IMG/VR virus record: IMGVR_UViG_3300008107_000472
Coordinates: 1-48,833 of that record
From: a virus
Strand: one strand, 5' to 3'
Length of the DNA: 48,833 nt
Below the pieces are notes generated by a model. It saw nothing but the letters and a program-made list of their open reading frames with translations, searched no databases and was not told the origin of the DNA. The position numbers and the translations under genes were made by a program. Of this stretch, positions 18,107 through 42,421 are shown piece after piece; position 1 is the first letter of the stretch, and each line of letters starts with the position of its first letter.

Positions 18107-18883
18107 ATGAGGAAGATTAAAGATTACTATGATTTTCTTAATGAAGGTGTACCTTACTCAGTTGAATTTATTAAAGGTCTAATCAAGTCATTTGTTGACA
18201 CTTTGAAAATTTCACAAAAGGCCGAGGAATCCCCGAGAGGTAGCAATAAAGGGAAAGAAGTTGAAGCAATGCAAAAAGCTGCTGGAACAACTCCTGGAAA
18301 CCCTTGGTGTGCAGCTTTCGTTTATGATGTGTTTAGTAAGTCTGGGATAGGTTCTTATGAGAAAAATAAAATTCCAGTTACTCCTTCAGTTAGGATTCAC
18401 TGGGAAAAATCAAAAGGAGCAAAAATTACAGCAGAACAAGCTCTTAAAAATCCAAACCTAATTAAGCCAGGGATGGCTTTTTTCTATCTCACAAGAAATG
18501 AAAAGGGTGAATATCCCGGTTCAGGCCACACTGGAATCGTTCTTTCAGTTAATCCACAGGAGAAAAATTTTAGTTCGCTAGAAGGGAATACCAATCCAGT
18601 GGATGGAGCTAGAGAAGGATATGGATCTTTCTTGGTAACAAGAAATCTAAATGATCCTAGCATTTCAACCAAAAAATCAGATCACCCTGCTAAACTACTT
18701 GGATTCATAGATTACTTCGCTCCATACAGAGGAAGTTCTTTCGATTCATCTTTAAAAGATGAAATTGAGAAAGCTATTTCTAATGTTTTCAAAACTAAAA
18801 CAGAGAGGGAGAAAAGTTTTTTGTCAAGCAATCCTTGGGTGCTAAAGGATTACGAAAAAAATTACAAGGAAAGGTTTAAATAA
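18107..18883 (+). CDS. CHAP-domain peptidoglycan hydrolase with T4-type capsid-targeting-like N-terminus
   Basis: A 258-residue protein with an NlpC/P60-superfamily CHAP-type core (amidase or endopeptidase cutting peptidoglycan). The candidate nucleophile is Cys68 in NPWCAAFV, the general base His141 in GSGHTGIVL, and the third polar residue lies in EGNTN (159-163). The N-terminus MRKIKDYYDFLNEG precedes the enzyme domain and matches the aromatic-x-x-F-aliphatic-x-E peptide shared by about ten proteins here and by T4 internal proteins. No signal peptide is visible, so an endolysin role would need a holin. The tag instead allows a virion-packaged or tail-associated role. It lies between the giant structural gene and a collagen-like fibre. 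Confidence 0.8.
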   Translation: MRKIKDYYDFLNEGVPYSVEFIKGLIKSFVDTLKISQKAEESPRGSNKGKEVEAMQKAAGTTPGNPWCAAFVYDVFSKSGIGSYEKNKIPVTPSVRIHWEKSKGAKITAEQALKNPNLIKPGMAFFYLTRNEKGEYPGSGHTGIVLSVNPQEKNFSSLEGNTNPVDGAREGYGSFLVTRNLNDPSISTKKSDHPAKLLGFIDYFAPYRGSSFDSSLKDEIEKAISNVFKTKTEREKSFLSSNPWVLKDYEKNYKERFK

Positions 18884-18891
18884 TTAAAAAG

Positions 18892-21822
18892 ATGCCCCAA
18901 ATAAACGTATTAAATATATTACAAGGCGATAATCAATCAACCATAGTTGATAAGATTAATTACAACTTTGATCAGATACTAAGTGCAGGTGGAGGCCCTC
19001 AGGGACAAAAAGGATCTGCTGGAGCCACTGGTCCAGTTGGACCACAGGGACCGCAAGGGGTTCAAGGCCTCCAAGGACCATCTGGAAGCAAATGGTTTGT
19101 TCAAGATGTCACACCAGCCCTTGGATCAATATCAGGTTCTAATCCTTTCCTTTTCCCAACATTAGGGGATTATTGGCTCGATCCAGCATCTTCTGACCAA
19201 GACATATATGTTTACACTTCCACCGGGTGGGCAGATACTGGATTTGGATTAGCAGCAGGGGATATTTTTCAGAATCTTGCTCCGATCTCAATAGCAGGGG
19301 GAGGCACACAGAATGCTATAATGATAGCAGGTGCTTCAAATGATTCAACAGTGGTTTTATCGGATTCTACTATTTCTGACTATACTCCTGCAGGAACGCC
19401 TATACAAAATTTAAATTTCGAGAATTCTAAACTTAAAATTTCAACTAAGGATAGTAGAACAAAACTTATAAGTTTTAGTCACGCAGAATTCGATGTCGAT
19501 CCAGGGGGATCTGCAAGTTCAAATAGCAATTATAATCCATATTTCCAATGGAGAACTTCAGTTCCTGGACCCAAGGGATACTGGGATATAGAATTCACAA
19601 ATCCTACAGGATCTATTTTAATAAAATCTCCGGGTACTGTTCTAAATAGTGGAATTAATTTAAGTTCAAGTGCTGAAATTTCTGCTGTTTCATCTGCTGA
19701 TAATGTACTTCTAAGCACAGCATCTTCAAACAAAGGAACTTTAGTAGATGCTTCCTCAGGAACATATGGATTCTTCGAGGTCAGTGATAATGGGGGGACT
19801 AACCAGTCATATCCTTTCCTGTACGTAAACTCTACTGGATTAGGACTTGGTATAGGTACGGGGGGATTTAAGCTCACAGGTGATGATCGTAGAAGACTAT
19901 CAGTACTTGGTAATGTAAGTGTTTCCACAACAGTTTCTGAACACAATGCAGCTTTATTTACGGGGAACGTGAATTTCCCTTTAAATCACAATAAAGGATC
20001 TTTTTATGTCCAAGGTCATGCAGGATTTGGCAGATTAAATCCTACTGGATACGAGGGTGGTTCTGTTAATATAACAGGGCCTAATGAATTACTTGGTTTA
20101 TATCCGCAACTTTGGGTCACATCTCCTAATTATGGACCAGCTTTACAAATAAAAACATTAGGGGGATCAACTTTCACCAGCAGATCAGTTATTGGTGACG
20201 GAACAATAGATTTTAATTTTATCACATCCTCCACTCAAAGAGTTTCTGGAACTGGTCCTGATTTTACACAGGAATTCTTTTCTAGCGGACACACTTTTAC
20301 TGCAGGACCTCTTTTAAGTTTTCAACATAAGATTACAGATTCTTCAAACACAACAGGAACTGCGAACGTTTTTGCCATAACAACAAACATGAATGCTGGC
20401 GTTTACAATAACGCCAATTCTGTTAACAATACAACAATTCAAACTAGGAATTCTAATCCGCGTTTGATTTTAGAAGCTAATTCTACTGGACAATATGACA
20501 GCAACAGAATATCTCTGGGATTTTCTGGTAACAGAACGATTGCAACTTATCCTGGACCACAATCACCGGATCCTTGGTATGGAACTACTGTTATTGGTGC
20601 AATGTCTGGTTCGGTTCAACCTAAGGGTCTTACTGGTAATTTAAGTACTTTTGCTACTTTTCCTAGTCTTTCGCTTATTTCTTTTCAAGGAACATCCGGA
20701 GGATGGAACGAGCCAAACCATGCTTTATCAATAGTAGGAGTCCAAACTATTGGTACTACTGATCCAGTTTCTCTTTTGGGGGGAGCTAAATCAAGTACAG
20801 GTCAATTTGGAGCAATTTCTATGCTTAAGATTCACAGAAATTTAGGAAACTCCGTTTATGTACCTCCATCTTCTGCTTACTGGCAGGGAATAACTGGAGC
20901 GTATCCATTTAACTACCCGAATGGTTTAGAAATTACATCATTTAAAAGTCAGGCTGCTGTTCCTGGAAAGGGCAACGAAAACAAAAGCGTTGCGTTGGCA
21001 ATTGGAGCTACTAAATACACAGCAGCTGAGGATAATGAACGAGTAACGTGTCCTGCTACAGGATTCTATGTCTCTGATACTGGAGAAAACGTAGCCATAG
21101 GGACTACTATTGATAATGATGCTGTACTTGCAGTTTCTGGAGCAGCTGCTATTAGCAATGCTATATTAGCTTATGGAGATGTAAATGTAACCGGTGGTAA
21201 TTTAAATGTTACTAATGGTGATGTGAATGTTACTGGAGGTGATTTAAATGTAACTGGGAGCATTTCATTTAATATAGACCAAGCTTTCAATTCTACGGCT
21301 GAGGGTCCAACAGGATATACTCTGTTTAGACAAAGATCGAATGATATTTATTTATATTCTGAGCAGGCTAAAGGTGCAACAACTATAATAAACAGTACGT
21401 ACATCAGTAGTGGTGGACTGTCTATGTTTAATAACCAAAACATTACATTAGCAGGACCTCTCAAAATGATAAGAGATTCACTCGGTTTTAATTGTACTGT
21501 TACTGGCATGCCTAGTTCTGTTAGATATCTATCTTCTTTTAGTAGCGGATCATATACTACTAACACTACTTCTTCGATAACATACCTTGGTCCTTATCAA
21601 CGGGATGTGATAATTTATGGAATGACTAGTAGCGGAACGTCTCCATCGACAGACATATATGTAGAGGATATTGATGCTTCCAATTTCTATATCCTAGGCA
21701 GAGCAAATGGCGGTGGCAATTCATGGACAGCAATTGTTCCGGCGGATTGTCAGTTTTACATATTATTGGAGGGTACTGGAAATTACTCATTTAGGGTATG
21801 TGAGTTTGGACGTGTATCATGA
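18892..21822 (+). CDS. Collagen-like tail fibre protein
   Basis: A 976-residue fibre. The N-terminal 30 residues form a helical attachment segment (VDKINYNFDQIL). Eleven Gly-x-y collagen-like triplets follow (residues 35-67), then a WxxDP-type small domain, and a long Ser/Thr/Gly/Asn-rich beta region. Four seven-residue repeats of the form (D/N)-(V/L)-N-V-T-x-G lie at about 763-790, typical of a triple beta-helix. A C-terminal beta domain of about 150 residues probably forms the receptor-binding tip. The stop overlaps the next ATG (ATGA, 21819-21822), indicating translational coupling. Role in host recognition is inferred. Confidence 0.8.
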   Translation: MPQINVLNILQGDNQSTIVDKINYNFDQILSAGGGPQGQKGSAGATGPVGPQGPQGVQGLQGPSGSKWFVQDVTPALGSISGSNPFLFPTLGDYWLDPASSDQDIYVYTSTGWADTGFGLAAGDIFQNLAPISIAGGGTQNAIMIAGASNDSTVVLSDSTISDYTPAGTPIQNLNFENSKLKISTKDSRTKLISFSHAEFDVDPGGSASSNSNYNPYFQWRTSVPGPKGYWDIEFTNPTGSILIKSPGTVLNSGINLSSSAEISAVSSADNVLLSTASSNKGTLVDASSGTYGFFEVSDNGGTNQSYPFLYVNSTGLGLGIGTGGFKLTGDDRRRLSVLGNVSVSTTVSEHNAALFTGNVNFPLNHNKGSFYVQGHAGFGRLNPTGYEGGSVNITGPNELLGLYPQLWVTSPNYGPALQIKTLGGSTFTSRSVIGDGTIDFNFITSSTQRVSGTGPDFTQEFFSSGHTFTAGPLLSFQHKITDSSNTTGTANVFAITTNMNAGVYNNANSVNNTTIQTRNSNPRLILEANSTGQYDSNRISLGFSGNRTIATYPGPQSPDPWYGTTVIGAMSGSVQPKGLTGNLSTFATFPSLSLISFQGTSGGWNEPNHALSIVGVQTIGTTDPVSLLGGAKSSTGQFGAISMLKIHRNLGNSVYVPPSSAYWQGITGAYPFNYPNGLEITSFKSQAAVPGKGNENKSVALAIGATKYTAAEDNERVTCPATGFYVSDTGENVAIGTTIDNDAVLAVSGAAAISNAILAYGDVNVTGGNLNVTNGDVNVTGGDLNVTGSISFNIDQAFNSTAEGPTGYTLFRQRSNDIYLYSEQAKGATTIINSTYISSGGLSMFNNQNITLAGPLKMIRDSLGFNCTVTGMPSSVRYLSSFSSGSYTTNTTSSITYLGPYQRDVIIYGMTSSGTSPSTDIYVEDIDASNFYILGRANGGGNSWTAIVPADCQFYILLEGTGNYSFRVCEFGRVS
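18994..19092 (+). repeat. Collagen-like Gly-x-y coding repeat
   Basis: Eleven consecutive codon triplets encoding Gly-x-y, rich in Pro, Gln and Ala, within the fibre gene. Such repeats form a collagen-type triple helix in phage fibres and are recombination-prone, so copy number may vary among relatives. Confidence 0.85.
21178..21261 (+). repeat. Four 21-base repeats coding for (D/N)(V/L)NVTxG heptapeptides
   Basis: Four tandem 21-base units encode DVNVTGG, NLNVTNG, DVNVTGG and DLNVTGS. The codons differ between units (gtaaat/gtgaat, accggt/actgga), so the repetition has been kept at protein level rather than by recent duplication. It likely forms a short beta-helix stem in the fibre. Confidence 0.75.
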
Positions 21823-22666: not shown

Positions 22667-22681
22667 GCCTAAATAAAAGGG

Positions 22682-22691
22682 AATATATAAA
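22682..22691 (+). promoter_or_regulatory. AATATATAAA late-promoter-like element
   Basis: AATATATAAA in the 27-base gap before the 785-residue structural gene, ending two bases before its ATG. Same spacing as the element at 18095. Confidence 0.45.
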
Positions 22692-22693
22692 GC

Positions 22694-25599: not shown

Positions 25600-25600
25600 T

Positions 25601-30431: not shown

Positions 30432-30441
30432 GATATATAAA
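30432..30441 (+). promoter_or_regulatory. GATATATAAA late-promoter-like element opening the accessory block
   Basis: Exact GATATATAAA, 19 bases before the ATG at 30461, followed by an A/G-rich leader (aagaaagaaaggaaagg) that contains an AGGAAAGG ribosome-binding-like stretch. Confidence 0.55.
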
Positions 30442-30460: not shown

Positions 30461-31039
30461 ATGAAAAATCTTCAAGTATACGAATCTTTTTGTATTAACG
30501 AGAGTGAAAAATTGTTTTTTAAAAGACACAATCAGGGAGATACGTACAAAAAAAGATCTAAAGAAAGCTACGGACTTTCAGATGATCCAACAATTCTCCA
30601 AAAAACCCGTGACTTCTTCCAAAAAGTTGAAACTAGAATCAACAACATGGCAAGAGAGGGATCAAGCTTGGTTAAATCAAACAGAGCTTCAAGAGGTGGA
30701 GGTCCAGACACTGGTGTAGAAACACTCTTTGGAGTTTTCTCTGTTGTTCCAAATGTTCTTAAAAGGGTATTCGGTCCAACAAATTACTCCTTTTCTAAAA
30801 GTACTCCAAAGGACGATTCTGTTGATTTGGAGTTTATGAGACACACTAATGAGGAGTTCGCCAAAAAAGATCTTCCTAATATTAGAAGTGAAAAGCAATT
30901 GGAAGATAACGTAGCAGATCTTTATCAAAAAGGTGGAGTTAAAAGAGGACAAAGTCCGGTTTTAGATGATATAGCTAGAAACCGTGCTAATCTTTACTAT
31001 ACCAGAGAAAAGAATCCTAATCAACCGATTTTTAAATAA
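30461..31039 (+). CDS. Hypothetical protein with capsid-targeting-like N-terminus
   Basis: A 192-residue basic protein of unknown family. The N-terminus MKNLQVYESFCINESEK has the aromatic-x-x-F pattern followed by I-N-E, an (I/L)-x-E site of the T4 prohead-protease type. The rest is rich in Lys, Arg, Asn and Ser with a Gly-rich turn (SRGGGPDTG) and a hydrophobic stretch (LFGVFSVVPNVLKRVFG, about 89-105). A basic, tagged protein from a late-type promoter fits an internal head protein. No catalytic motif seen. Confidence 0.65.
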   Translation: MKNLQVYESFCINESEKLFFKRHNQGDTYKKRSKESYGLSDDPTILQKTRDFFQKVETRINNMAREGSSLVKSNRASRGGGPDTGVETLFGVFSVVPNVLKRVFGPTNYSFSKSTPKDDSVDLEFMRHTNEEFAKKDLPNIRSEKQLEDNVADLYQKGGVKRGQSPVLDDIARNRANLYYTREKNPNQPIFK

Positions 31040-31053: not shown

Positions 31054-31776
31054 ATGAAAAAGTTTTCTTCTATTGTAGAAAAGAAAAAACAAGAGCTAGC
31101 AGAAAGCCAGTTGGTTAGTGAAAGAAATCTTTATTTAGATTTTTCTAAGAAGTATCACAAAGAGCATGGTGTTTCTGGTCCTTTTGATAAGAAGTTTAAA
31201 GGAGACAAGAAAGCTCAACAAGATTATATGGAAGGTCTTTCTAAGGCTTGGGAAGAGCACAAAGAAAAGAAGGGAATTAAAATCAAGCAAGATAAGAAGT
31301 TTGATTTCAAAAAGAAGGTTAATGAGTCTAAAGCATTAGAACTTGCCAAGCAGATGGTTGGTGATGGTGGTGAGCCTAATTACTTCTTTGTTAGTATGTG
31401 CGATGACTACTTCTTCGAGAAGGATGGCCAAATGGTGAAATATTCTACAGATATGGCTTCTGCCCCTTTGAAGATTAAAACCACACCAGATTTAGGTTCT
31501 TACACTTTCGGTCCTTTTATGAACCTTGAGGAATCAAAACTATTCATTGAGAGTATAGAATTGGATGAGATCAATGGTCCTAGAATGGCTAAGATTGAGG
31601 ATAGAAAAGAGGGTGAAGTTTTTGTAAAGTATCTTTCTTGTAAACTACAGCCAGTTTGGGACGAGCACTATGAGGATACTGAAGAATCTGATGATTTTGA
31701 GGACGAAGATGAATATGAAGATCCAAATTCTGAATACACCTACGGTGACGAAATAGAAGACGAAGACGAGGAATAA
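31054..31776 (+). CDS. Hypothetical protein with acidic C-terminal tail
   Basis: A 240-residue protein: MKKFSSIVEKKKQELAES at the N-terminus (F-x-x-I-V-E, a short form of the shared peptide), a Lys-rich helical half (about 20-110), a compact domain (YFFVSMCDDYFFEKDGQMV onward) and a very acidic last 40 residues with over 20 Asp or Glu. Bipolar charge of this type is seen in nucleic-acid mimics and assembly factors, but no family is recognised. Starts 14 bases after the previous gene; the next gene starts three bases after its stop. Confidence 0.65.
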   Translation: MKKFSSIVEKKKQELAESQLVSERNLYLDFSKKYHKEHGVSGPFDKKFKGDKKAQQDYMEGLSKAWEEHKEKKGIKIKQDKKFDFKKKVNESKALELAKQMVGDGGEPNYFFVSMCDDYFFEKDGQMVKYSTDMASAPLKIKTTPDLGSYTFGPFMNLEESKLFIESIELDEINGPRMAKIEDRKEGEVFVKYLSCKLQPVWDEHYEDTEESDDFEDEDEYEDPNSEYTYGDEIEDEDEE

Positions 31777-32230: not shown

Positions 32231-34234
32231 ATGTCAGGAATAAAAAATCTAGCAGATATTTACGAAAAACAGGGCAAGGACTTTGTGGAAAAGCTTTTCA
32301 AGGATGATGTGACTATCACAGAAAATCTTGATGGTTCTGCTTTTTCGTTTGAAAAGGATTTCATAGGTGATAACATTTCTTTCTATAAAAAAGATCAAGA
32401 CAATCCTATCACAAGAGTGGACAGGATTTTAATGACCTATTATGAAAAACCTATTACTTATATAGAATCCCTTCCTGAAAGTATAAAACAAGAAATTCCT
32501 CAAGGCTGGAGATTTGGTATGGTTTATTTTCCAAATTCGAAACCAGTCAGAATTCAATACGATAGAATTCCTAGAAATCACCTTATTCTGACTCATATCA
32601 CAGTTAGGGACGAGTTTGGTGAGAATATTAGATCTATACAAGATAAGGAGGAGTTAGATTCTTGGGCTGATAAACTTGGTGTTGAAAAAGCACCGATTCT
32701 TTTTCAAGGTAAATTAGACCAGGATCAAAAGATTTCAATATTGGAGTTTATTTCCACTCCAATAATGGATTTAAAGGACAAATTCAGAACGCAAAGCTTT
32801 ACCAAATACATTATATCATTAATCGATCCTAAAGCCTCTAAAAGTGCTTTAGGGGAAGATTTACAAGGGACAGTCGATTCGATAGTATTTAGATTTGTTG
32901 GTAAAGAAGGAGAACAGGAAGTTTTAGCTAAAGTTGTTGATCCAATAATTTCTGAGCTAAATAAAGATAGAAAGGTTGCTGCTTCAACATATTTTCCTAG
33001 TGATGTCTATTCGTTGTGTTTGATAGACATTATGAATTTTATCCTTGAGGAAAATATGGAGAGTTTCCCTGCTACAGGGGAAGAGCCAGAAGAAAGATAT
33101 ATTAACTTTGTTTTTTCTGTTTTTAAAAGATTCATTGAAAAGAATGGACAGAAATACATTGGGACGGATTTTAACAAACCAGAATACCTTAAATCTGAAA
33201 ATTTTGCGATAAACAAAGAGTTTATCCAAGATCCTGATGTTCTCTTACTTATAGAACAGGATGATGCTTATCCTGAAATTCTGCAAATGATTTTGAATTC
33301 ATTTAGAAAGTTAAAGAGAAAACCTCATGGATTCTTTACTGAAGGATTAATTCAACAATTCAATAAAGTTGTGGAAGAGATTGCTGCTTATATTAATGCT
33401 AAGAGAAAAGAGAGACTTCAGGAATCACTTGGAGTACCTTCTTTCATGTGGTTTAAAAAAGTAGCAACCACATTTAAAGTTTCCCAAGAAGCTGATGAAG
33501 AAATAGAAGTGGTAGAAGTGATTGAAGAAGCAGTAGAAAACAACAATATTCCAGTAGAAGAACAAATTAATGAAAGCTCTGTCGATACACAAGAACAACC
33601 AAGTGAAAAAGAAGAGGAGAAAAAAGAGGACACTTCTGAATTCTTCTCGTTTAAGGACTTCAAAAAAGTTATCTCTACAAACAAGGAGAAGAAAAAGATT
33701 AAGATCATTAACGAAGAGAAGCAAAAAGTCAATTTAGTAATTGGTAAGTTTCAGCCATTTAATAATGGACACCTAAAGATGTGTACAAGACTTAAGAAGG
33801 AAAACGGAAATCCAATTTTCCTGTGTGTTGTTCATCCAGATGAAAAACTGCTTAAATTTCCATTCTCTAAAGATTTAATTAAAAAATCTATTGGATCTCT
33901 GATCTCAGAAAACAACGATTTGTTTGTTGGTTATAAAATCATCCCTGAGTCACTTCTAGAGTTAGCAATCAATTCTATTATTGATGAGGTTAATCCGGTA
34001 TCTGTTTGTGTTGGAGAACAAGATTTCGAAAACACAATTCTCCAGAGAGAATGGATGAGAAAAAAATACGACTTTGGAGGTCAGGAATTGGAAATCTTTA
34101 AAACCCCAAGATGGTCAGAAAACAGTCAAGTGAGATCACATATTCAGAATTCAGATTTCCAAAAATTCAAATCAAGTGTGCCTAAACCTATAGCAGTTCT
34201 TTTCAACGAATTCGTAAGAGAGTTAAACGATTAA
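32231..34234 (+). CDS. Degenerate ligase-like domain fused to an NMN adenylyltransferase-like domain
   Basis: A 667-residue fusion. Residues about 1-245 follow the motif order of RNA/DNA ligase nucleotidyltransferases: motif I ENLDGS at 31-36 (expected EKxDGS, so the nucleophilic Lys is Asn), a motif III-like WRFGMVYF (expected Gly-Glu, here Gly-Met), motif IV LQGTV at 211-215 (expected EG, here QG), and motif V AKVVDP at 233-238. The middle is helical, then an acidic Glu-rich linker (about 420-475). Residues 501-667 form a Rossmann-type nucleotidyltransferase with GKFQPFNNGH (505-514) and SENSQVRS (629-636), the counterparts of the HxGH and ISTxxR motifs of NMNAT/CTP-transferases. NAD synthesis is the likely output of the C-terminal domain; the N-terminal domain is probably a non-catalytic nucleic-acid or nucleotide binder. 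Confidence 0.75.
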   Translation: MSGIKNLADIYEKQGKDFVEKLFKDDVTITENLDGSAFSFEKDFIGDNISFYKKDQDNPITRVDRILMTYYEKPITYIESLPESIKQEIPQGWRFGMVYFPNSKPVRIQYDRIPRNHLILTHITVRDEFGENIRSIQDKEELDSWADKLGVEKAPILFQGKLDQDQKISILEFISTPIMDLKDKFRTQSFTKYIISLIDPKASKSALGEDLQGTVDSIVFRFVGKEGEQEVLAKVVDPIISELNKDRKVAASTYFPSDVYSLCLIDIMNFILEENMESFPATGEEPEERYINFVFSVFKRFIEKNGQKYIGTDFNKPEYLKSENFAINKEFIQDPDVLLLIEQDDAYPEILQMILNSFRKLKRKPHGFFTEGLIQQFNKVVEEIAAYINAKRKERLQESLGVPSFMWFKKVATTFKVSQEADEEIEVVEVIEEAVENNNIPVEEQINESSVDTQEQPSEKEEEKKEDTSEFFSFKDFKKVISTNKEKKKIKIINEEKQKVNLVIGKFQPFNNGHLKMCTRLKKENGNPIFLCVVHPDEKLLKFPFSKDLIKKSIGSLISENNDLFVGYKIIPESLLELAINSIIDEVNPVSVCVGEQDFENTILQREWMRKKYDFGGQELEIFKTPRWSENSQVRSHIQNSDFQKFKSSVPKPIAVLFNEFVRELND

Positions 34235-34235
34235 G

Positions 34236-34245
34236 GATATATAAA
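34236..34245 (+). promoter_or_regulatory. GATATATAAA late-promoter-like element before the peptidase/VWA/MoxR module
   Basis: Exact GATATATAAA directly after the preceding stop codon and 11 bases before the ATG at 34257. Confidence 0.55.
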
Positions 34246-34256: not shown

Positions 34257-34949
34257 ATGAAAAGACTCCTCGGATGGCAAGAATTTCAACTCTTTGAGCA
34301 AAACTACGCTGATATAGACGACCCAAAAGGCAAACAAATTTCAGAGGATGCCTTTAAAAAGATGAGGCTTTGTTGTTTTGATATTGTCACTAAATATCCA
34401 TTCTTTAGAAAGCTTCTTTCAGAATTAACAATAAGGGAAAATAGAAACCTAAGATTTAGAACCATGGCAACTGATGGATCTAGTATTCACTATGATCCAG
34501 GGTTTGTTCTTGAAAAATCTGAAGATGAAATTATATTCGTGATTTGTCATGAAATAATGCACAACGTTTTATTTCACTTTGCTAGAAAAATGCCAGATCC
34601 AGATCTTTGGAATGTTGCTGCTGACTATGCTTTGAATCAATTACTCGATGGAGTTGGAAAGATGCCTGAAGAGGCACTTTATCCAGGATGTAAATATCAT
34701 CCTGATGATGCTAAGTTTGTTAATCTTTCAGCAGAGCAAATATACGAATGGCTTGAAAAATCAGCTAAAACACCACCCCCTCCAACTCCTCCACAATCAG
34801 GACAAGCTCCTGATGCTGAAATTGGAATTGGTGATGTGATTAGAGATACTAAGTCTGGATCTTATGGTGTTGTTAAATCAATAGATCCAGCATCTGGTGA
34901 GATAGAATATGACCCAATTCCAGAATCTGAAGTTTCTAAATATTTGTAA
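34257..34949 (+). CDS. Putative metallopeptidase domain protein (DUF2201 N-terminal type) with capsid-targeting-like N-terminus
   Basis: A 230-residue protein. A zinc-peptidase HEIMH motif at residues 98-102, within VICHEIMHNVLFHFAR, is followed by NVAADYALNQLL, the usual third-ligand region of the VWA-associated DUF2201 metallopeptidase domain. The C-terminus is a Pro-rich linker and a small beta domain. The N-terminus MKRLLGWQEFQLFEQ carries the aromatic-x-x-F peptide ending in L-F-E. In bacteria this domain is usually fused to a VWA-like domain; here the VWA part is the next gene, 6 bases downstream. Proteolytic activity is probable from the motif, not shown. Confidence 0.8.
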   Translation: MKRLLGWQEFQLFEQNYADIDDPKGKQISEDAFKKMRLCCFDIVTKYPFFRKLLSELTIRENRNLRFRTMATDGSSIHYDPGFVLEKSEDEIIFVICHEIMHNVLFHFARKMPDPDLWNVAADYALNQLLDGVGKMPEEALYPGCKYHPDDAKFVNLSAEQIYEWLEKSAKTPPPPTPPQSGQAPDAEIGIGDVIRDTKSGSYGVVKSIDPASGEIEYDPIPESEVSKYL

Positions 34950-34955
34950 TAAAAG

Positions 34956-36065
34956 ATGAAAGCAAAAATAACAGAGGTTAAAAAAATAGTTCCTAAGCAA
35001 GGTGGCCAAGGCGGTGGCCAAGGCGGAGAACCTCCAAAAAATATTGAACAATTTGGTGAAGGACCTGACGAACCAGGAACAGAAGATCAGCCTGGACAAG
35101 AAGGACCAGAAAAACCAGGTGATGACAAAAAGCAAGATAAAAAATCTGGGAAGGGAAAGAAAGGTGAGCAGGGTCAAGACGACCAAGGAAAACCTTCTAA
35201 GGGATCAGGATCAGGTTCAGGAACAGATAAAGGACAGGGATGGGAAGAAGTCGATCCAGAAGTTCCTGGGGCCAGTTATGAGGTTACACCTTGGCAAAAG
35301 CCAGCAGGAAAAACAGTCATAGGTGAAGTATTGCCTGCTGGAACTTTAGGTGAAGGACCAACTGATAATGAGAAGATGAAAGAGGAATGGAAGCAAATCA
35401 CAACTGCTGCAGAGTCCCAATCACAAGGAAAAATTCCAGGAGGAATCAGAGCAGCTCTTGATAGAATGAGAGCTCCTGTTATTGATTGGAAAAGAGAACT
35501 CGAAACCTTTATTGATAATGCTATCTCTAAAACAAGATACGCTTTACCCGCTAGAAGATTCTTAGCACAAGGTAAAGCACAATATGGTTACAAAAGATAC
35601 AAGGAAGATTTTGAATGTGTTGTTATTGCAATTGACACATCAGGTTCTATATCTGATAAAATGGTAGCTCAATTCCTTGCTGAAGCAAAAGCAATAGTTG
35701 ATGCTTATTCTCCACAGGATCTTTATGTTATTTTCTGTCACACTAGCATTTATAGAGTAGATCATATCCAACCCGGAGATCCTATAGAAGTTGGTAAATT
35801 ACAATCGGGGGGTACCGAGTTTTATCCTCCATTTAAATGGACTCAAGAAAATCTTTTAGATAAAGGAATCAATCCTTCTTGTTTCATTTATTTCACAGAT
35901 GGTGAAGCAACTTTCCCAAAAGCTTCTGAATATGGTATAGGAGAATACGAAGATCGATGTCTTTGGGTACTTCTTACCTGGAACGGAAGACCATTCCCAG
36001 ACGAAATTCCTTTTGGTGGAAGAATTGATATTACATTACCTAATAAGGACGTAAATACTATCTAA
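34956..36065 (+). CDS. VWA-like domain protein (DUF2201 C-terminal type)
   Basis: A 369-residue protein with a low-complexity Gly/Gln/Pro/Lys N-terminus (about 10-110, including a GGQGGGQGG repeat) and a C-terminal von Willebrand A-like domain. The MIDAS sequence DTSGS is at 227-231, the conserved Thr in GGTEFYPP near 286-293, and the TDGEA segment in the fourth strand region. Upstream helices (WKRELETFIDNAISK) are those seen in the DUF2201/VWA family. It is the metal-dependent adaptor partner of the preceding metallopeptidase and of the MoxR ATPase that follows. It lacks the targeting-like N-terminus of both partners. Confidence 0.85.
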   Translation: MKAKITEVKKIVPKQGGQGGGQGGEPPKNIEQFGEGPDEPGTEDQPGQEGPEKPGDDKKQDKKSGKGKKGEQGQDDQGKPSKGSGSGSGTDKGQGWEEVDPEVPGASYEVTPWQKPAGKTVIGEVLPAGTLGEGPTDNEKMKEEWKQITTAAESQSQGKIPGGIRAALDRMRAPVIDWKRELETFIDNAISKTRYALPARRFLAQGKAQYGYKRYKEDFECVVIAIDTSGSISDKMVAQFLAEAKAIVDAYSPQDLYVIFCHTSIYRVDHIQPGDPIEVGKLQSGGTEFYPPFKWTQENLLDKGINPSCFIYFTDGEATFPKASEYGIGEYEDRCLWVLLTWNGRPFPDEIPFGGRIDITLPNKDVNTI

Positions 36066-36068
36066 AAA

Positions 36069-36077: not shown

Positions 36078-36096
36078 AATAAATAAAAAACAATAG

Positions 36097-37665
36097 ATGA
36101 AAAGGATCTACAATTTTAATGAATTCGTAAACGAGGGATATTTTTCGGAACTCGGATCTAAAATCTCTGGTTGGATCGATTCCATAAAGAGTGCGTTGAA
36201 ATCTGGAATTATGAAAATGATTCCTTCCGGTCCAAAGGCTGGAAAACCAATGGCTATGGCTTTTGATCCAGATAAAGGTTCAATTGAATCACAGCTTTTA
36301 GATTTTTTCTCAGGCACTCCGTATGCTGAAGCAAGTAACGAAGCAAAAGTTCCTTTGGAATTTCCAAGATCACAAGATATTCTTGATGTTAAAGAACAGG
36401 AATTGAAAAAGATGATTAAAACCCGTCTTAAGGACATCTTGAAAAATGGTGAAAAATTCGATGCTGGTGATATTAGTCCAGAAGCAGCTGCTCAAGGAGC
36501 AAGAGATGTTAAACCAATCTTCATCTTTGGAGCACCTGGTATTGGTAAAACCCAAATCGTTGCACAAGTTTGTGACGAACTTGGAAAAGAATTATACGGT
36601 AAACCATTAAACCTTGCTTTTGTAGATGGTGAATTTGCAGAGCCTGTTGACTTTGCTGGTGTGCCTTCTGTTGTAGATATTGCACAACCTTCAGAAACTG
36701 ATCCTTATGGAAAAGGTATTACTAGAGCAAACGTTTCTGTAAACCTTCTTCCGAATGATAATGGTAGAGACAATATGGGTGGTATACTCTTTATTGACGA
36801 ATTAAATCGTATGCCTCAAGAAGTAATCAAAGTTTTCATGAAGCTTGCTCAATCTAGAAGACTTGGTCAGAATTACGAGATTCCTTTGAAATGGTATATT
36901 GTTGCAGCAGGTAACAGACCAGAAGATGATCCAAGAGAAGTTAAACCAATGGGTACAGCTTTAAGAGATAGATTCTCTGTTGTTAACTTTGTTACTTCTC
37001 CTGCTTCTTATAGAAAATTCATTGAAGGTAGCAGATTGAAAGATATTGTATTACCTGAACTTTTAGATTTCTTGGATTTCCAACAGGATTATTTCCACAA
37101 CTTAGATCCTTCTAAACAGATGATCAAATACCCAACGCCAAGAGCTTGGACTGATGCTGCTGTGGGATTGGAAAGAACAATGAGAGAATTAGAAAGTGAA
37201 GGTGTAAAAGAGATTTCTGATAAGGATCTTCTCAATGCTTTCCAAATTGAAGTTGGTTATGAAGCAGCAGCTGCTTTTGTTGATTTCTATAAAGTTGCTA
37301 AAGAAATTCCTGTTAAGGATTTACTTCTTCCTTTCAGCGATCCTGAAAAAGCTCCTCTTCCTGACAAAACAGATTCTAAAGGAAAAACTAGAGCAGACTA
37401 TGCTCACGCTCTCCTTTCAGGAATCATCAGAATGAGTAGAGAAAAGATCCTTACTCCAACAGAGGTTTGCAACTTTGCAACATATCTTCAAAGAGTAGGT
37501 TCACCTGAATGGGGAGGAGCAGCTTTAAGTAATTTAACTGCTAATCACCCTTACTTATTCGATAAAAACCAAAGAGATTACGATCCAGAAAGAGCAACTA
37601 AGATAGTAACATGTCTTGGTCCTTTGGTAAGAAAATGGAACGTTACTCTTGGAACTGAACTTTAA
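36097..37665 (+). CDS. MoxR-type AAA+ ATPase with capsid-targeting-like N-terminus
   Basis: A 522-residue AAA+ ATPase. Walker A GAPGIGKT at 145-152, Walker B GILFIDELNR at 229-238, sensor 1 VAAGNRPEDD, and the arginine-finger helix ALRDRF. The Walker B/ELNR wording and a following helical lid of about 200 residues are those of the MoxR/RavA clade, which acts as a chaperone-like remodeller with VWA partners. The first 16 residues (MKRIYNFNEFVNEG) carry the shared peptide, followed by a 110-residue N-terminal extension that is not part of the AAA+ fold. With the peptidase and VWA genes it forms a three-gene module. Confidence 0.9.
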   Translation: MKRIYNFNEFVNEGYFSELGSKISGWIDSIKSALKSGIMKMIPSGPKAGKPMAMAFDPDKGSIESQLLDFFSGTPYAEASNEAKVPLEFPRSQDILDVKEQELKKMIKTRLKDILKNGEKFDAGDISPEAAAQGARDVKPIFIFGAPGIGKTQIVAQVCDELGKELYGKPLNLAFVDGEFAEPVDFAGVPSVVDIAQPSETDPYGKGITRANVSVNLLPNDNGRDNMGGILFIDELNRMPQEVIKVFMKLAQSRRLGQNYEIPLKWYIVAAGNRPEDDPREVKPMGTALRDRFSVVNFVTSPASYRKFIEGSRLKDIVLPELLDFLDFQQDYFHNLDPSKQMIKYPTPRAWTDAAVGLERTMRELESEGVKEISDKDLLNAFQIEVGYEAAAAFVDFYKVAKEIPVKDLLLPFSDPEKAPLPDKTDSKGKTRADYAHALLSGIIRMSREKILTPTEVCNFATYLQRVGSPEWGGAALSNLTANHPYLFDKNQRDYDPERATKIVTCLGPLVRKWNVTLGTEL

Positions 37666-37667
37666 GA

Positions 37668-37937
37668 ATGCAAAAATTCAGTAATATAAAGGAAGGTCAT
37701 ACATTCAAGTATGACCTTTCTCCTAGTAAAAAGGTATTAGAAGAAGCCATGTCAAAACTTAAACAAGTTATTGACGAGTATTCTAAGCTTGAAGATGCTG
37801 ATATTACTGATTTACAAGAGGGATGGAATTTGATAGATAAATACTACGGAAACGTTGTTAGAGGAGAAATATTCAAAAGGAAAAACAATAAGTATATTCC
37901 AAATATCTCTGCAACTTTTCCAAAAAAAGGTAACTAA
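37668..37937 (+). CDS. Small hypothetical protein
   Basis: An 89-residue protein starting three bases after the MoxR stop. It begins MQKFSNIKEG (F-x-x-I-K-E, a short form of the shared peptide), followed by a central amphipathic helix pair (VLEEAMSKLKQVIDEYSKL) and a basic C-terminus. Co-transcribed with the MoxR module; could be a cofactor of it. Family not recognised. Confidence 0.6.
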   Translation: MQKFSNIKEGHTFKYDLSPSKKVLEEAMSKLKQVIDEYSKLEDADITDLQEGWNLIDKYYGNVVRGEIFKRKNNKYIPNISATFPKKGN

Positions 37938-37940
37938 ATT

Positions 37941-38474
37941 ATGAAACACTTAACATTGTACGAGAATTTCCTCAATGAGGATGGATATGGAAGAGATTAC
38001 TTCATAAGAAAAAAAGAGGGAAAAGTTTATAATTATTTCTTCAAAGTAGACGGTGAAGAGGATGAACTCGGATTCATAGTTAGTTTAGGTAAATTATCTA
38101 GAAATATAACAATAGAAGCTGCTGAGAATAGCTACGCAGTTATTTCAGTTCAACCAATGTCTCCAAATATTATGGATGATTACTTGGTAAGTGATTCTGA
38201 TTACAGATCAAGAGAAAACGATTCTTTCTCATTAACTAAGTCTGAGTTTATGAGGTTCTATAAAATAGTTGGTGAAGCTATAAAGGACTACTTGCAAAAT
38301 AATCCAAAGGTTTCCACTATTTATGATGAGATGCCTTTGAATTTAAAAGGGGATTTTAAAGTTTACATGTCTTTTGTTAAAAATTTAATGGATTCTTGGA
38401 GCTATAACAAATGGAGTATTCAAGAAGGACCATCTTCAAAAATTGTTATCTATAAGAGAAGAGATCATGAATAA
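37941..38474 (+). CDS. Hypothetical protein with capsid-targeting-like N-terminus
   Basis: A 177-residue alpha/beta protein beginning MKHLTLYENFLNEDG, one of the clearest copies of the Y-x-x-F-L-N-E peptide. The body has a beta-rich first half and two helices (FMRFYKIVGEAIKDYL and FVKNLMDSWSYN). No catalytic motif. Overlaps the next gene by 8 bases. Confidence 0.65.
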   Translation: MKHLTLYENFLNEDGYGRDYFIRKKEGKVYNYFFKVDGEEDELGFIVSLGKLSRNITIEAAENSYAVISVQPMSPNIMDDYLVSDSDYRSRENDSFSLTKSEFMRFYKIVGEAIKDYLQNNPKVSTIYDEMPLNLKGDFKVYMSFVKNLMDSWSYNKWSIQEGPSSKIVIYKRRDHE

Positions 38475-38820
38475 TAGTTTTATTCTTAAATACGATGATT
38501 TTGTCAACGAATCAAGAATAGCTATTGCTTGGGCAAAACCTTCTCAAGTAACGACCACTATTTTGTCTTTTATAGAGGAAAAACAAAGAGTGTCTAAAAA
38601 AGAACTTTTAGAATTCTTAGAATCTATGGAGGAGGATTCATCTGGTAAAAAACCAACAATGTCTTGGGTTAGGAATCATAAGAAGTATATCCAATACAAA
38701 ATCCAAGAGGAAGAAGCCAATTATTTTTGTTTGACTACATTAGGAAAAAGAATATTAAGATCTGTAAGGATAAATGAAACATCTGGTAAAAATTCAACTA
38801 AAAAGGATATAAAATCATAA
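38467..38820 (+). CDS. Small, probably winged-helix-like protein with targeting-like N-terminus
   Basis: A 117-residue protein. The ATG at 38467 is preferred over the in-frame upstream ATG because it restores the N-terminal peptide (MNNSFILKYDDFVNES) and gives a short coupled overlap. The body, with a helix (TTILSFIEEKQRVSKKELLEF), a second helix (SWVRNHKKYIQYK) and a strand-turn (FCLTTLGKRIL), is compatible with a winged-helix DNA-binding fold, but this is only a secondary-structure impression. Confidence 0.6.
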   Translation: MNNSFILKYDDFVNESRIAIAWAKPSQVTTTILSFIEEKQRVSKKELLEFLESMEEDSSGKKPTMSWVRNHKKYIQYKIQEEEANYFCLTTLGKRILRSVRINETSGKNSTKKDIKS

Positions 38821-38824
38821 AAAA

Positions 38825-39004: not shown

Positions 39005-39009
39005 TTTCA

Positions 39010-39237: not shown

Positions 39238-39242
39238 AAAAA

Positions 39243-39434
39243 ATGTCTAAGAAAAAACCCGTATCTTCTTCTGATAATCAATACCCAGAAACAGGAGCTT
39301 ATAAGCCACCAGTTTCACCAGTAAAGATTCAGAAAGGAGATACGGGTTTTAATTTGACAAAAGACAAGTACCGTAGGTTTATTTGGACTTTCAAAGAATA
39401 TATAGGTAAGAAACCTAAATTCACTGATAGTTAA
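39243..39434 (+). CDS. Small hypothetical protein
   Basis: A 63-residue basic, Pro/Lys-rich protein, disordered at the N-terminus, with one aromatic C-terminal helix (YRRFIWTFKEYIGKK). No family recognised. The spacing (5 bases before, 1 base after) supports a real coupled gene. Confidence 0.5.
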   Translation: MSKKKPVSSSDNQYPETGAYKPPVSPVKIQKGDTGFNLTKDKYRRFIWTFKEYIGKKPKFTDS

Positions 39435-39435
39435 T

Positions 39436-39798
39436 ATGCCAAGCGTAACAAAAAGTCAACAAAGATTAATGGGACAGGCTTACGGAGTACGTAAGTGGAT
39501 GGACTCAGACGGAAAAACTGGTATTGATCCAAATACTATTGAATCCGAATACAGAAAAGAAATCATGGACATTGCAAAAAATATGTCCAAAAAATCTCTT
39601 AAAGATTTTGCTTCAACCAAACATAAGGGATTAAAAGAAGAGGAAATGTCATCTTCTACAGAGGAAGGAAATCCTGGAGACGTTCCAACCCTATATCCTT
39701 ACTTGAAGCCTGAATCTAACAAGCCAAAAAAACAATCTGGCTTATCTAAGCTTCAAAATCTTTCGGATTACAGAGAATTTATTAGCAAGAAAAAATAA
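39436..39798 (+). CDS. DUF3008-like protein with a C-terminal copy of the shared peptide
   Basis: A 120-residue protein. The N-terminal half fits the phage/bacterial DUF3008 family: VTKSQQRLMGQAYG at the start, then IAKNMSKKSLKDFASTKHKGL. Function of the family is unknown. After a Ser/Pro-rich linker the last 16 residues (KLQNLSDYREFISKKK) resemble the aromatic-x-x-F-aliphatic peptide found at the N-termini of other proteins here. Confidence 0.7.
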   Translation: MPSVTKSQQRLMGQAYGVRKWMDSDGKTGIDPNTIESEYRKEIMDIAKNMSKKSLKDFASTKHKGLKEEEMSSSTEEGNPGDVPTLYPYLKPESNKPKKQSGLSKLQNLSDYREFISKKK

Positions 39799-39805
39799 CT
39801 TAGTT

Positions 39806-40324
39806 ATGGAAGAAGAATTAAACGAAGACTGTGGATGCTCATCCACTGCAGATAATATTAGAAGTTTCTCAGCTCCTCAAGTCTCAAGATACAGTTCCGA
39901 TCCGCTCGTTGGCAAACGTGTTAATCTTGTTGATGGTAGATCCGGTCTAGTTGATGATTCTATTAGAAACAATGTTGGTGAGGTTATTGGATACGTTATC
40001 GAAGGGGACAGAGGATCTTATAGAGTTTTCAAAAACAAAATATCAGGAGTTATTGATGAAAGTGGTGGTGCTTTTGCTTCATTGGCTGCAACGCCTGGTA
40101 TGGGCAATGTAGTGCCTCCAACTCCAGGCAAAGAAGGATCTGGTGATCAATTTCCGACATTAACAGCAGGAACCCCTGCAGCAGGAAAAGGCAAAAAGAA
40201 AAAGTACAAAAACATCATGCTTGGATCTGATACAGAGGACACAACTAAAAGAGAAAAAGATCCCTTAGATACTTCCCTTTTAAATTTCGATGCCTTTGTT
40301 AAAAGATCAAAGAAGAACCAATAA
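39806..40324 (+). CDS. Hypothetical protein with C-terminal targeting-like peptide
   Basis: A 172-residue protein. An acidic N-terminus with a Cys pair (DCGCSS) is followed by a small beta domain (VGKRVNLVDGRSGLVDD, then VIGYVIEGDRGSYRVF) of SH3- or KOW-like look, a Pro/Gly-rich linker, a KGKKKKYK basic patch, and a C-terminal segment LLNFDAFVKRSKKNQ resembling the shared peptide. It is the last gene before the terminator at 40346. Family not recognised. Confidence 0.6.
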   Translation: MEEELNEDCGCSSTADNIRSFSAPQVSRYSSDPLVGKRVNLVDGRSGLVDDSIRNNVGEVIGYVIEGDRGSYRVFKNKISGVIDESGGAFASLAATPGMGNVVPPTPGKEGSGDQFPTLTAGTPAAGKGKKKKYKNIMLGSDTEDTTKREKDPLDTSLLNFDAFVKRSKKNQ

Positions 40325-40345
40325 GAAATTTTGACATATTTTTTT

Positions 40346-40377
40346 AAATCCAAGTGACAAAATCACTTGGATTTTTT
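40346..40377 (+). terminator. Rho-independent terminator
   Basis: A perfect 12-base-pair stem (aaatccaagtga / tcacttggattt, arms 40346-40357 and 40363-40374) with a 5-base loop, followed by a T-run. It ends the operon of small genes and sits 21 bases after their last stop. The best terminator seen in the window. Confidence 0.9.
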
Positions 40378-40404
40378 GTTTTTCTTGGAACGGAATTCAT
40401 TTTG
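40375..40404 (+). promoter_or_regulatory. Possible Bacteroidota-type host promoter before hsp20
   Basis: TTTG at 40375-40378, then an 18-base spacer, then TCATTTTG (40397-40404), close to the Bacteroidota consensus TTTG...TAnnTTTG apart from one mismatch. Start would fall near 40411, leaving about a 20-base leader to the ATG at 40431. This gene lacks the GATATATAAA element, which fits a host-polymerase (early) promoter. Weak, single-instance evidence. Confidence 0.35.
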
Positions 40405-40430
40405 ATATTATGGTGAAAAAATAACAAACT

Positions 40431-40760
40431 ATGATAACAACAGAATTTGAATTGCCTTTCTTTATGAAGAACTTTAAAAGTTCCTACGGCACCTACACTC
40501 ACAAATCGGGAGTGATTGTTTTAGAAGTTCCTGGATTTTCAAAAGAGGATCTTAGAATTTCCTTAGAAAATCGAGTAGTTCATGTGGAAGGAAAAAAAGA
40601 AATTTTAGGTACTAATTATGAAATTGACAAGAAGTTCGTTTTACCGAATGAAAGCCTTAATTCGGAAGAACCTATTACAGCAAAGATTGAAAACGGCTTA
40701 TTATTCCTCAATCTCAATAAAAATAAAAAAGAAAAGAAAAAAGAGATAGAGATTTTGTAA
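40431..40760 (+). CDS. Small heat-shock protein (Hsp20/alpha-crystallin family)
   Basis: A 109-residue protein covering the alpha-crystallin domain: GVIVLEVPGFSKEDLRISLE, then VVHVEGKKE, and the closing (I/V)-x-N-G-L-L segment (IENGLLFLNL), with a short N-terminal arm and a Lys-rich tail that lacks a clear I-x-I motif except IEIL at the end. ATP-independent holdase that prevents aggregation. Related proteins occur in T4-like marine phages, where an assembly or stress role is suspected. First gene after the terminator. Confidence 0.9.
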   Translation: MITTEFELPFFMKNFKSSYGTYTHKSGVIVLEVPGFSKEDLRISLENRVVHVEGKKEILGTNYEIDKKFVLPNESLNSEEPITAKIENGLLFLNLNKNKKEKKKEIEIL

Positions 40761-40769
40761 TTTAGCCTT

Positions 40770-41150
40770 ATGGCTATTTCAATCATTCAGGAGGAGTATA
40801 AAAACGATCCTTGGAAAGTTTTAGTTTGTTGCATCCTTTTAAATCAAACAAACAACAAGCAGGTTAGGCCACTAATAGAAAGTTTCTTTCTTAAGTGGCC
40901 TAATTCTTTTGAACTTATGAAAGAGGACGCAGAAGTCATAAGCGACTTTATTAAAGCAACTGGATTCCAAAATGTTAAAGCCAAAAGATTAAAGTCATTT
41001 TCTCTTGAGTGGTCCGATGGACTGAGAGATCCCAAGCTCTTCACAGGAGTTGGTAAATATGGTAAAGAGGCATGGAGAATATTTGTTCAAAATGATCTAG
41101 ATTTTATACCATCAGATAAGAAGCTTAAAATGTATTTGGATGCTCTATAA
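40770..41150 (+). CDS. MBD4-like helix-hairpin-helix DNA glycosylase
   Basis: A 126-residue protein, shorter than endonuclease III and without an iron-sulphur cluster. The N-terminal NDPWKVLVCCILLNQT matches the start of the HhH-GPD domain of MBD4/DEMETER-type mismatch glycosylases; the hairpin is FTGVGKYGKEAWRIF (91-105). Asp116 in IPSDKKLKMY aligns with the catalytic Asp of MBD4 (PEDHKLNKY). It would remove T or U (or a modified base) opposite G. In a phage this suggests repair or editing of deaminated or modified bases, possibly the phage's own DNA chemistry. Follows hsp20 by 9 bases. Confidence 0.85.
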   Translation: MAISIIQEEYKNDPWKVLVCCILLNQTNNKQVRPLIESFFLKWPNSFELMKEDAEVISDFIKATGFQNVKAKRLKSFSLEWSDGLRDPKLFTGVGKYGKEAWRIFVQNDLDFIPSDKKLKMYLDAL

Positions 41151-41159
41151 ATATATAGA
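41146..41159 (+). promoter_or_regulatory. TATAAATA/ATATATAGA late-promoter-like element
   Basis: Contains an exact T4 late consensus TATAAATA (41146-41153) overlapping the glycosylase stop, running into AATATATAGA, nine bases before the ATG at 41162. Confidence 0.5.
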
Positions 41160-41161
41160 GT

Positions 41162-41758
41162 ATGAAGCATATACTGGAATTTAAAAAATACCAAAATCTA
41201 TTTGAAAAGATAGAAATGGTTACTGCAAATTGGTCTCTTGTTTATGATGAGGGATCTTTTGATAAAAAGCCAGGATATGGTTTTTTCATTTTTAATCAAA
41301 ATGGAAATTTTTCGATTAGCTATTCAAAATTAGAAAAGGTTGAAGAAGAGGAATCAAGAATAGATTTTTATCCTTCAGCAGAATCAGCCCCTGATAAAAA
41401 ATCTGTCTGTGTAGTTAAAATTGTTGGCAAAGACGGAAAAAGCAGAACAGAAAAGGGTTTTAATGAAATAACTTCCAATAATATTTGGGATATTATTTCA
41501 CTGTTTTTCGATTACTCGGATCTAGAAAAAGTAGATAAAACAGAGGTGGATAGATTCCTAATGGGATTTTCCAAAGGAATCAAACAAATTAGTAAGAGCG
41601 ATAAATCTGATGAAGTGCCTTCTTCTTATAAAGCTCTTTCTAAATTACTTAAAAATACTGTGAGCAATTCTCCGAATTTCGATTTAGGATCTGACGAACA
41701 AAGTAATAAATTGGAAGAGCTACTGAAGTCATTTATCCAATATTTTAAAAAGAATTAA
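41162..41758 (+). CDS. Hypothetical protein with targeting-like N-terminus
   Basis: A 198-residue protein. It begins MKHILEFKKYQNLFEK, a looser version of the shared peptide ending in L-F-E. The body starts with a WSLVYDEGSFDKKPGYGFFIF beta-hairpin region and ends in Ser-rich helices. No family recognised. Its stop overlaps that of the opposing gene in a shared TTAA (41755-41758). Preceded by its own TATAAATA element. Confidence 0.6.
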   Translation: MKHILEFKKYQNLFEKIEMVTANWSLVYDEGSFDKKPGYGFFIFNQNGNFSISYSKLEKVEEEESRIDFYPSAESAPDKKSVCVVKIVGKDGKSRTEKGFNEITSNNIWDIISLFFDYSDLEKVDKTEVDRFLMGFSKGIKQISKSDKSDEVPSSYKALSKLLKNTVSNSPNFDLGSDEQSNKLEELLKSFIQYFKKN

Positions 41759-42093
41759 GACTCTTCATCTTTCTTTTCTTCGTTATTGAATATCTCTCCA
41801 AATCTTTTAGGTACAAGATCTATTTTGTCTTTGGTCAACTTCTTTAATGAATTCATTATTACCAAGTAACCAATAGAACTTCCAGGAATAGGTGCAGCTA
41901 AAATGATTGCTACCAGAGGGGCTATTTTAGGAATATCTGAAAGATCTTTTAATGCTTTATTGATTTCTTCATCTGATGGAGGTTCATTTCCGTTAAATTT
42001 TGAAGACAATAAATTGCTTAAAACACTTGATGAATTTTTCAAATCTCCAAATTCGTTTTTCCAAGCCCGTATTACCTTTTTATGTAGATCCAA
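41755..42093 (-). CDS. Hypothetical protein with hydrophobic, LETM1-like segment
   Basis: A 112-residue protein with the apparent start TTG at 42093; no ATG is available before the upstream stop. It has N-terminal charged helices, then a hydrophobic stretch (APLVAIILAAPIPGSSIGYLVIM, quoted in parts: IILAAPIPGSS near 75-85) followed by LVPKRFGEIF, a layout reminiscent of short LETM1-like domains in phage and bacterial proteins. Membrane association is plausible. It is co-transcribed with the minus gene upstream and converges with the plus gene. Confidence 0.5.
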   Translation of the reverse strand: MDLHKKVIRAWKNEFGDLKNSSSVLSNLLSSKFNGNEPPSDEEINKALKDLSDIPKIAPLVAIILAAPIPGSSIGYLVIMNSLKKLTKDKIDLVPKRFGEIFNNEEKKDEES

Positions 42094-42109
42094 TCTAGAG
42101 GAAGTTTAA

Positions 42110-42421
42110 TTATGATAGATCCTCTTTATTTTTAAGTTCCGATAAATAATTCTTCCAGATTTCTCCACCCTCTTTAATTCCTTTATTTTGGAACTTGTGG
42201 AATTCTGCTCTTTGTGACATGATATAGCAAGCTATGATTGCATCTTTGATTTTGATTTGACCTTTGGTTATCATGTCTTGTAACCTTCTAATAGATTTCA
42301 AAGCTTCCTCCTTATTGACAAATCTAAGTCCCTTAGGATGACTATTTTCCTTTGCGAAAGGATTAACATCATTCAGGTAAACTTGTTCGAATAATTTAAA
42401 GCTAATGAGGTTTTTCACCAA
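42110..42421 (-). CDS. Hypothetical protein with targeting-like N-terminus (TTG or GTG start)
   Basis: A 103-residue protein. The first codon of the open frame is TTG (42421); the next codon, GTG at 42418, is an equally good start and would give VKNLISFKLFEQ. Either way the N-terminus has an (I/L)-x-E peptide ending L-F-E. The rest is a helical, Lys-rich domain (EALKSIRRLQDMITKGQIK, DAIIACYIMSQRAEF). Divergent from the DNA polymerase gene, with an AATATATAA element immediately upstream. Confidence 0.6.
   Translation of the reverse strand: MVKNLISFKLFEQVYLNDVNPFAKENSHPKGLRFVNKEEALKSIRRLQDMITKGQIKIKDAIIACYIMSQRAEFHKFQNKGIKEGGEIWKNYLSELKNKEDLS

Follow-up and report, generated by a model that had tools for sequence, protein, structure and literature searches.

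A T4-type capsid-targeting-like peptide at the N-termini of unrelated proteins in a virus fragment and its relatives

Tagged proteins in the window

The window, the whole stretch of DNA analyzed here, is a fragment of 48,833 bases from an uncultivated T4-related phage, with about 44 genes. Its gene content includes gp32, UvsW, NrdA/B and primase-like genes (named from the sequence and the original prediction, and profile-tested in part). The original prediction had listed ten proteins with a common N-terminal peptide (referred to here as the tag), and all ten peptides are found in the translations at their assigned starts (Table 1). The start at 38467 is an internal ATG within an open reading frame listed from the TTG at 38443, and the start at 42421 on the minus strand is a TTG codon, replaced by GTG in the orthologues. 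The full tag pattern, [ILVF]xx[FYW]xx[FY]-(0-2)-[LIVFC]xE, is fitted well by eight of the ten peptides. The remaining two, at 31054 and 37668, are weak variants, conserved in relatives despite having a single aromatic residue each. Three further features were absent from the list: the partial adenylate kinase at 48556 has a tag-like N-terminus, and the proteins encoded at 39436-39798 and 39806-40324 carry copies of the aromatic ladder at their C-termini. The gp32 protein (26326), which had been described as lacking the tag, has a loose regex match to it that is treated here as chance.

Table 1. Tags, ladder copies and promoter-like elements in the window.
Feature	Position	Strand	Evidence
Tag MRKIKDYYDFLNE, CHAP-domain hydrolase (gene 18107-18883)	18107..18145	+	PF05257 E=2.8e-6; ladder kept in homologue
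Tag MKNLQVYESFCINE, protein without assigned function (gene 30461-31039)	30461..30502	+	Conserved in G001-G005
Weak variant MKKFSSIVE, acidic-tailed protein (gene 31054-31776)	31054..31080	+	Conserved; one aromatic
Tag MKRLLGWQEFQLFE, DUF2201_N metallopeptidase domain (gene 34257-34949)	34257..34298	+	PF13203 E=2e-23; conserved
Tag MKRIYNFNEFVNE, MoxR-type AAA ATPase (gene 36097-37665)	36097..36135	+	PF07728 E=3e-10; tag core identical in five relatives
Weak variant MQKFSNIKE (gene 37668-37937)	37668..37694	+	Conserved; one aromatic
Tag MKHLTLYENFLNE, protein without assigned function (gene 37941-38474)	37941..37979	+	Conserved in relatives; predicted structure
Tag MNNSFILKYDDFVNE, protein without assigned function (gene 38467-38820)	38467..38511	+	Translation; relatives
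Tag MKHILEFKKYQNLFE, protein without assigned function (gene 41162-41758)	41162..41206	+	Translation; relatives
Tag MVKNLISFKLFE, protein without assigned function (gene 42110-42421, TTG start)	42386..42421	-	Translation; relatives
C-terminal ladder NLSDYREFISKKK, DUF3008-like protein (gene 39436-39798)	39757..39795	+	Conserved in relatives
C-terminal ladder LLNFDAFVKRSKKNQ (gene 39806-40324)	40277..40321	+	Conserved in relatives
Tag-like N-terminus MKIKKFGEFSGKS, partial adenylate kinase; ladder without Glu	48556..48594	+	PF00406 E=2.7e-17
Protein with C-terminal cytidylyltransferase-like domain, internal ladder FFSFKDFKKV, within tag cluster	32231..34234	+	phrog_395 E=8.9e-5
Promoter-like GATATATAA directly upstream of tagged gene (18107)	18095..18103	+	
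Promoter-like GATATATAA upstream of tagged gene	30432..30440	+	
Promoter-like GATATATAA upstream of tagged gene	34236..34244	+	

The tag is conserved for nine of the ten proteins in five related contigs, with the orthologues sharing 44-78% overall identity. Substitutions within it mostly preserve the aromatic, aromatic, aliphatic and Glu positions. For the protein at 18107, the sole homologue found in these contigs is 49% identical; it preserves the aromatic ladder (MKHILFFENF) with an altered spacing to the Glu.

In the predicted structure of the protein at 37941, residues 1-17 have low confidence and lie beside a folded domain (mean pLDDT of 30 for the first 10 residues, mostly 60-77 for the rest), placing the tag outside the predicted fold. 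A fold search with this protein gave no match at E<=0.001.

Two genes of the window appear divided relative to their families. The DUF2201 metallopeptidase/vWA protein is encoded by one gene in PHROG 1314 and by two here (34257-34949 and 34956-36065), with the tag on the N-terminal half only. A family-B DNA polymerase-like protein (42482-43888; family named from its sequence, without profile confirmation) stops after 468 residues, and its likely C-terminal part is found far away in a relative (G003:196605-198230), which suggests that this polymerase may be split.

Enrichment of the tag and its flanking signals in relatives

A gapped motif model was trained on N-termini of the relative G003 only, with a 1% false-positive threshold set on internal windows. 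Six of 45 window genes pass this model, compared to 0.45 expected (P=6e-6), and five of the ten listed peptides rank as the top five of all 45. In other relatives the model passes 19/154, 9/108 and 23/158 genes; since orthologues are shared among the contigs, these counts show position-specific enrichment and conservation rather than full independence. In an unseeded EM search of 471 non-redundant proteins from four relatives, about 30% of the N-termini contain [HRK][IL]xx[FY]xx[FY]; the log-likelihood gain is 395, and two internal control windows reach 163 and 185. The profile search that had been proposed across relatives thus shows enrichment of the peptide at N-termini over internal windows, also without a seed.

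In the 348-kb relative G014, 48 of the 419 genes are tagged (8.5 expected), as are 37 of 312 in G003 (7.0 expected). The motif rules used throughout were fixed after part of the data had been inspected. The tagged proteins were claimed to share nothing else, and 47 of them, selected for mutual dissimilarity, align only as xxxIxxFxxFxNE, with F10 present in at least 90%. Among the domains annotated in tagged proteins are OmpA, adenylate kinase, CHAP, DUF2201 metallopeptidase and MoxR. One tagged protein of a relative, with an LYRG motif, was considered as an ADP-ribosyltransferase; this assignment was rejected, as PDB and Pfam searches returned nothing.

Of 46 tags, 23 (50%) have Gly, Ala or Ser directly behind the Glu (P1′), compared to 19% of internal matches (p=2e-4). 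A terminal [I/L]xE followed by a small residue is therefore a feature of these peptides; two of the ten in the window are weak variants, and numerous tag-like N-termini have no Glu at the correct distance.

Of 144 tagged genes, 50 have a TATATAA-like element in the 45 nt upstream, as do 47 of 633 untagged genes; the p value of 1e-15 is too small, because orthologous genes of related contigs are counted repeatedly. In the 348-kb relative alone, the element precedes 14 of 48 tagged and 24 of 371 untagged genes (p=1e-5). In the relative G004 (see below), it is also located before the gene for the protease-scaffold and before several probable virion genes, and by analogy to T4 it is read as a putative late promoter.

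A second motif, KG[AGS]x[ML][LMI]x[RK]F(G), is found at the C-termini of unrelated proteins (L017:12617-13633, L022:1165-2061 and eight more G003 genes, with four in G001). It occurs 10 times at the C-termini and once elsewhere in G003 proteins. Several proteins with this motif bear the N-terminal tag as well.

Protease, scaffold and capsid genes of the relatives

The original prediction called for a gp21-like (S77) prohead protease. None is located in the window, which is a fragment, and the enzyme is found in relatives on contigs that also bear tagged genes. The contig of G004 carries the tagged cluster, with a MoxR orthologue of about 52% identity, and encodes an S77 protease joined to a scaffold in one protein; a gp23-type capsid gene comes next. 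The profile scores in the relatives are 40.3 bits for PF03420 (cut-off 27) and 131.9 bits for PF07068 (cut-off 24.4). Searches of G001, G002, G003 and G005 for S77 gave no match; these contigs may be incomplete at the protease locus, and our guess is that tandem repeats may break the assembly there. Elsewhere in G004, a UvsW-like gene (L011:3464-6252; G004:83464-86252) is interrupted by a stretch with HNYIANGILVS, which suggests an intein or homing element.

Similar cleavage sites in the scaffold and capsid proteins had also been named as a check, and a conserved LNE/SAG (the slash marking the candidate site) is present in the gp23 gene beside the G004 protease. Most capsid proteins adjoining S77 proteases share the N-terminal HSLNE/SAGAY or a close form, and the S77 protease probably cuts the capsid protein at this position, judging from the sequences. 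The P1′ bias, the capsid site and the position of the tag at 37941 outside the predicted fold would fit a removable propeptide that is cut after [LIV]xE.

The fused scaffold of G004 contains 15 tandem 14-residue repeats, I-x-Y-S-E-Y-L-A-E-N-L-D-x-x. Among 70 protease loci, the protease ORF contains the repeat core (a tag-regex match) in 68, usually in 11-15 copies in register. This core, aromatic-x-x-aromatic-aliphatic-x-E, is the same as that in the tag, with Y-x-x-Y in the repeats and F-x-x-F in the tag. The tag-trained model finds no enrichment in the repeats, because the tags favor F and the repeats Y. A random 14-residue stretch holds the tag regex about 1% of the time (the internal-window rate), and the repeats count as one observation, so that the resemblance is suggestive only. 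AlphaFold predicts the repeats of the protease-scaffold to be helical, with low confidence (pLDDT of about 40).

Two huge phages have a tag excess in 50-kb samples: LR756502, with 11-12 repeats, and LR756500, whose repeats are degenerate. No such excess is found in samples of the same size from four phages that possess the protease and lack these repeats (Lak-A1, Flavobacterium MaF61, PA5oct and Pelagibacter Mosig). Tags are few in T4 and the cyanophages, and repeats are absent. This contrast is a correlation across a handful of lineages with partial genomes. Two stand-alone gp21 proteases of cyanophages/pelagiphages (L146:2707-3357 and L126:27731-28375) end in an FxxFL ladder (LFNDFLNSL and VFKNFLEKL), possibly a C-terminal tail for docking to the core.

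Comparison with known head cargo and interpretation

The tag closely resembles the capsid targeting sequence (CTS) of the T4 internal proteins IPI, IPII and IPIII (Mullaney and Black 1996, reviewed in PMC9026906). T4 IPII and IPIII begin with MKTYQEFIAE. Residues 4 and 7 were mapped by genetics to targeting and residues 8 and 10 to processing, and the first 10 residues of IPIII sufficed for incorporation (PMC9026906). Both the CTS and the tag are short N-terminal peptides (about 10-15 residues) common to otherwise unrelated proteins, with two aromatics three apart followed by I/L-x-E, an S77 protease (here in relatives) and diverse, here putative, cargo. The conserved columns of the tag (aromatic, aromatic, aliphatic and Glu) are the T4 targeting and processing residues, and the equivalents of T4 Tyr4 and Phe7 are F/Y at columns 5 and 8 of the unseeded motif. 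The proposed likeness to T4 therefore holds at the residue level, in the same four columns. There are differences as well. T4 has three such internal proteins, whereas the relatives examined here have tens. The tag here is usually shifted by three residues, with another hydrophobic residue before it. Moreover, apparent C-terminal copies of the ladder are present here, and the scaffold of the relatives is fused to the protease and contains tandem repeats.

Three cultured cyanophages provide a comparison with virion proteomes, from the accessible parts of the published data. The Synechococcus phage S-CREM2 has 52 virion proteins out of 219 (PMC10665884); of its six strictly tagged ORFs, five belong to this set (p=0.003). 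The four non-lysis enzymes detected in the virion (ORFs 6, 12, 14 and 154) are all tagged; the tagged virion proteins include a SAM hydrolase (MKDFDSFLEE), a kinase (MKRFDAFLTE), a cytidylyltransferase (MKNFSSFLTE) and a Cas9-like protein (RFASFMAEA). In the last of these, a nuclease (L112:7704-10313), the tag is located at residue 18, and TFRDFLN is found at the C-terminus. The sole virion enzyme of S-SZBM1 (PMC9146016), an NMNAT/cytidylyltransferase, is tagged (MRFRQFIIE), as is the virion NMNAT of S-SCSM1 (MKSFLQFLKE). The tag has the form F4-F7-[LF]8-E10 in S-CREM2 and S-SCSM1, and is one residue earlier in S-SZBM1. In the available data for S-SZBM1, the genome-wide association between tag and virion is not significant (p=0.45), and a pair of small proteins with clear tags are undetected in the virion; one tagged protein is undetected in that of S-SCSM1. 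For the three phages combined, tagged proteins are over-represented in virions (p=0.002 with a positional rule and 0.008 with the strict rule); the authors of the S-CREM2 (PMC10665884) and S-SCSM1 studies caution that proteins with high expression may be carried along when virions are purified.

These cyanophages share the tag with the present group, and have tagged proteins detected in their virions and a separate gp21 protease; they differ in having few tagged proteins and a non-repeat scaffold. The window protein at 39436 shares 44% identity over 68 residues with the virion-annotated S-SCSM1_93, and both end in an aromatic ladder (TFKEFLEYIE in the latter). The cytidylyltransferase-domain protein of the window (32231-34234), on the other hand, has no similarity detectable by BLASTP to the S-CREM2 virion cytidylyltransferase.

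Other phages have comparable systems. DarB of P1 (PMC9024508) likewise has an N-terminal signal, sufficient to send a reporter to the capsid, in a different phage that is described as having no separate scaffold system. The ejection proteins of SPN3US/phiKZ, as described in the accessible literature, are a large protein head cargo of big phages that is processed by the prohead protease. CTSs have been proposed as a possible route for T4-like phages to incorporate various proteins (PMC9026906), so the idea itself is not new; novelty appears to lie in the extent of tagging and in the repeat scaffold. Judged by titles, the accessible literature using the term capsid targeting sequence contains nothing on this phage group or on cyanophages, and the accessible text of the cyanophage virion papers does not mention the tag.

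The shared peptide is in all likelihood a prohead-core targeting propeptide of the T4 CTS type, greatly expanded. By analogy to T4, the window proteins would be packaged in the head and cut after the Glu. The enzyme cargo suggested by the original prediction gains support from the T4 residue match, the protease and capsid site of G004 and the cyanophage virion proteomes, and for this phage we infer such a cargo.

Three other explanations were weighed. The peptide could be a general docking helix for another site, such as a membrane initiation complex, the tail or a replication compartment, with the Glu being incidental. Some tags do lack the Glu, and the functions of the tagged proteins are diverse; we consider this improbable, as the Glu, the P3 aliphatic residue and the P1′ bias fit the logo of a prohead protease, and the available cyanophage virion data and the T4 genetics on the same residues (PMC9026906) point to the head. 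It is more doubtful still that the peptide is cut by the prohead protease and acts only in inhibition or timing, with the folded domains responsible for targeting. The conserved cleavage-type residues speak for this reading, but conservation is strongest in the aromatic ladder that precedes the site, and in T4 residues 4 and 7 act in targeting, with the initial 10 residues of IPIII being enough for incorporation (PMC9026906).

The least probable explanation, to which we give almost no weight, is an effect of translation start or mRNA, or a chance N-terminal composition. Phage ORFs often begin with MK and AT-rich codons, as is also seen here. Such an effect is at odds with the internal-window controls and the unseeded discovery, the downstream Glu and P1′ bias, the conserved C-terminal ladder copies, and the lack of excess in the 50-kb samples of the four phages without repeats.

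For the targeting propeptide, the following sequence of events can be envisaged. The tagged proteins would be made late, many from their own TATATAA element. The helix-like ladder [IL]xx[FY]xx[FY] would dock on the scaffold core inside the forming prohead, where the protease-fused scaffold, usually with 11-15 tandem 14-residue repeats, may act as a multivalent docking rod. The S77 protease would then cut after the tag-terminal [LIV]xE and free the cargo from the core. The cargo would remain in the head beside the DNA and be injected into the host. Docking on the repeats is the weakest link, because of the F-x-x-F and Y-x-x-Y difference and the low scores of the repeats with the tag model. A cargo code for T4-related and huge phages of this group, in which one repeat-like helix at either the N- or the C-terminus loads any protein through the repeat scaffold, such that tens of proteins (at least 10% of the genes) are carried and injected, is put forward tentatively, its chances being a little short of even.

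As a rule, head cargo can be identified only in phages that are cultured, by virion proteomics. Should the tag mark such cargo, sequence would suffice to list the proteins that uncultivated phages inject, and each genome would offer a testable location and time of action for tens of hypothetical proteins. The arrangement also suggests how a single scaffold could load many different proteins.
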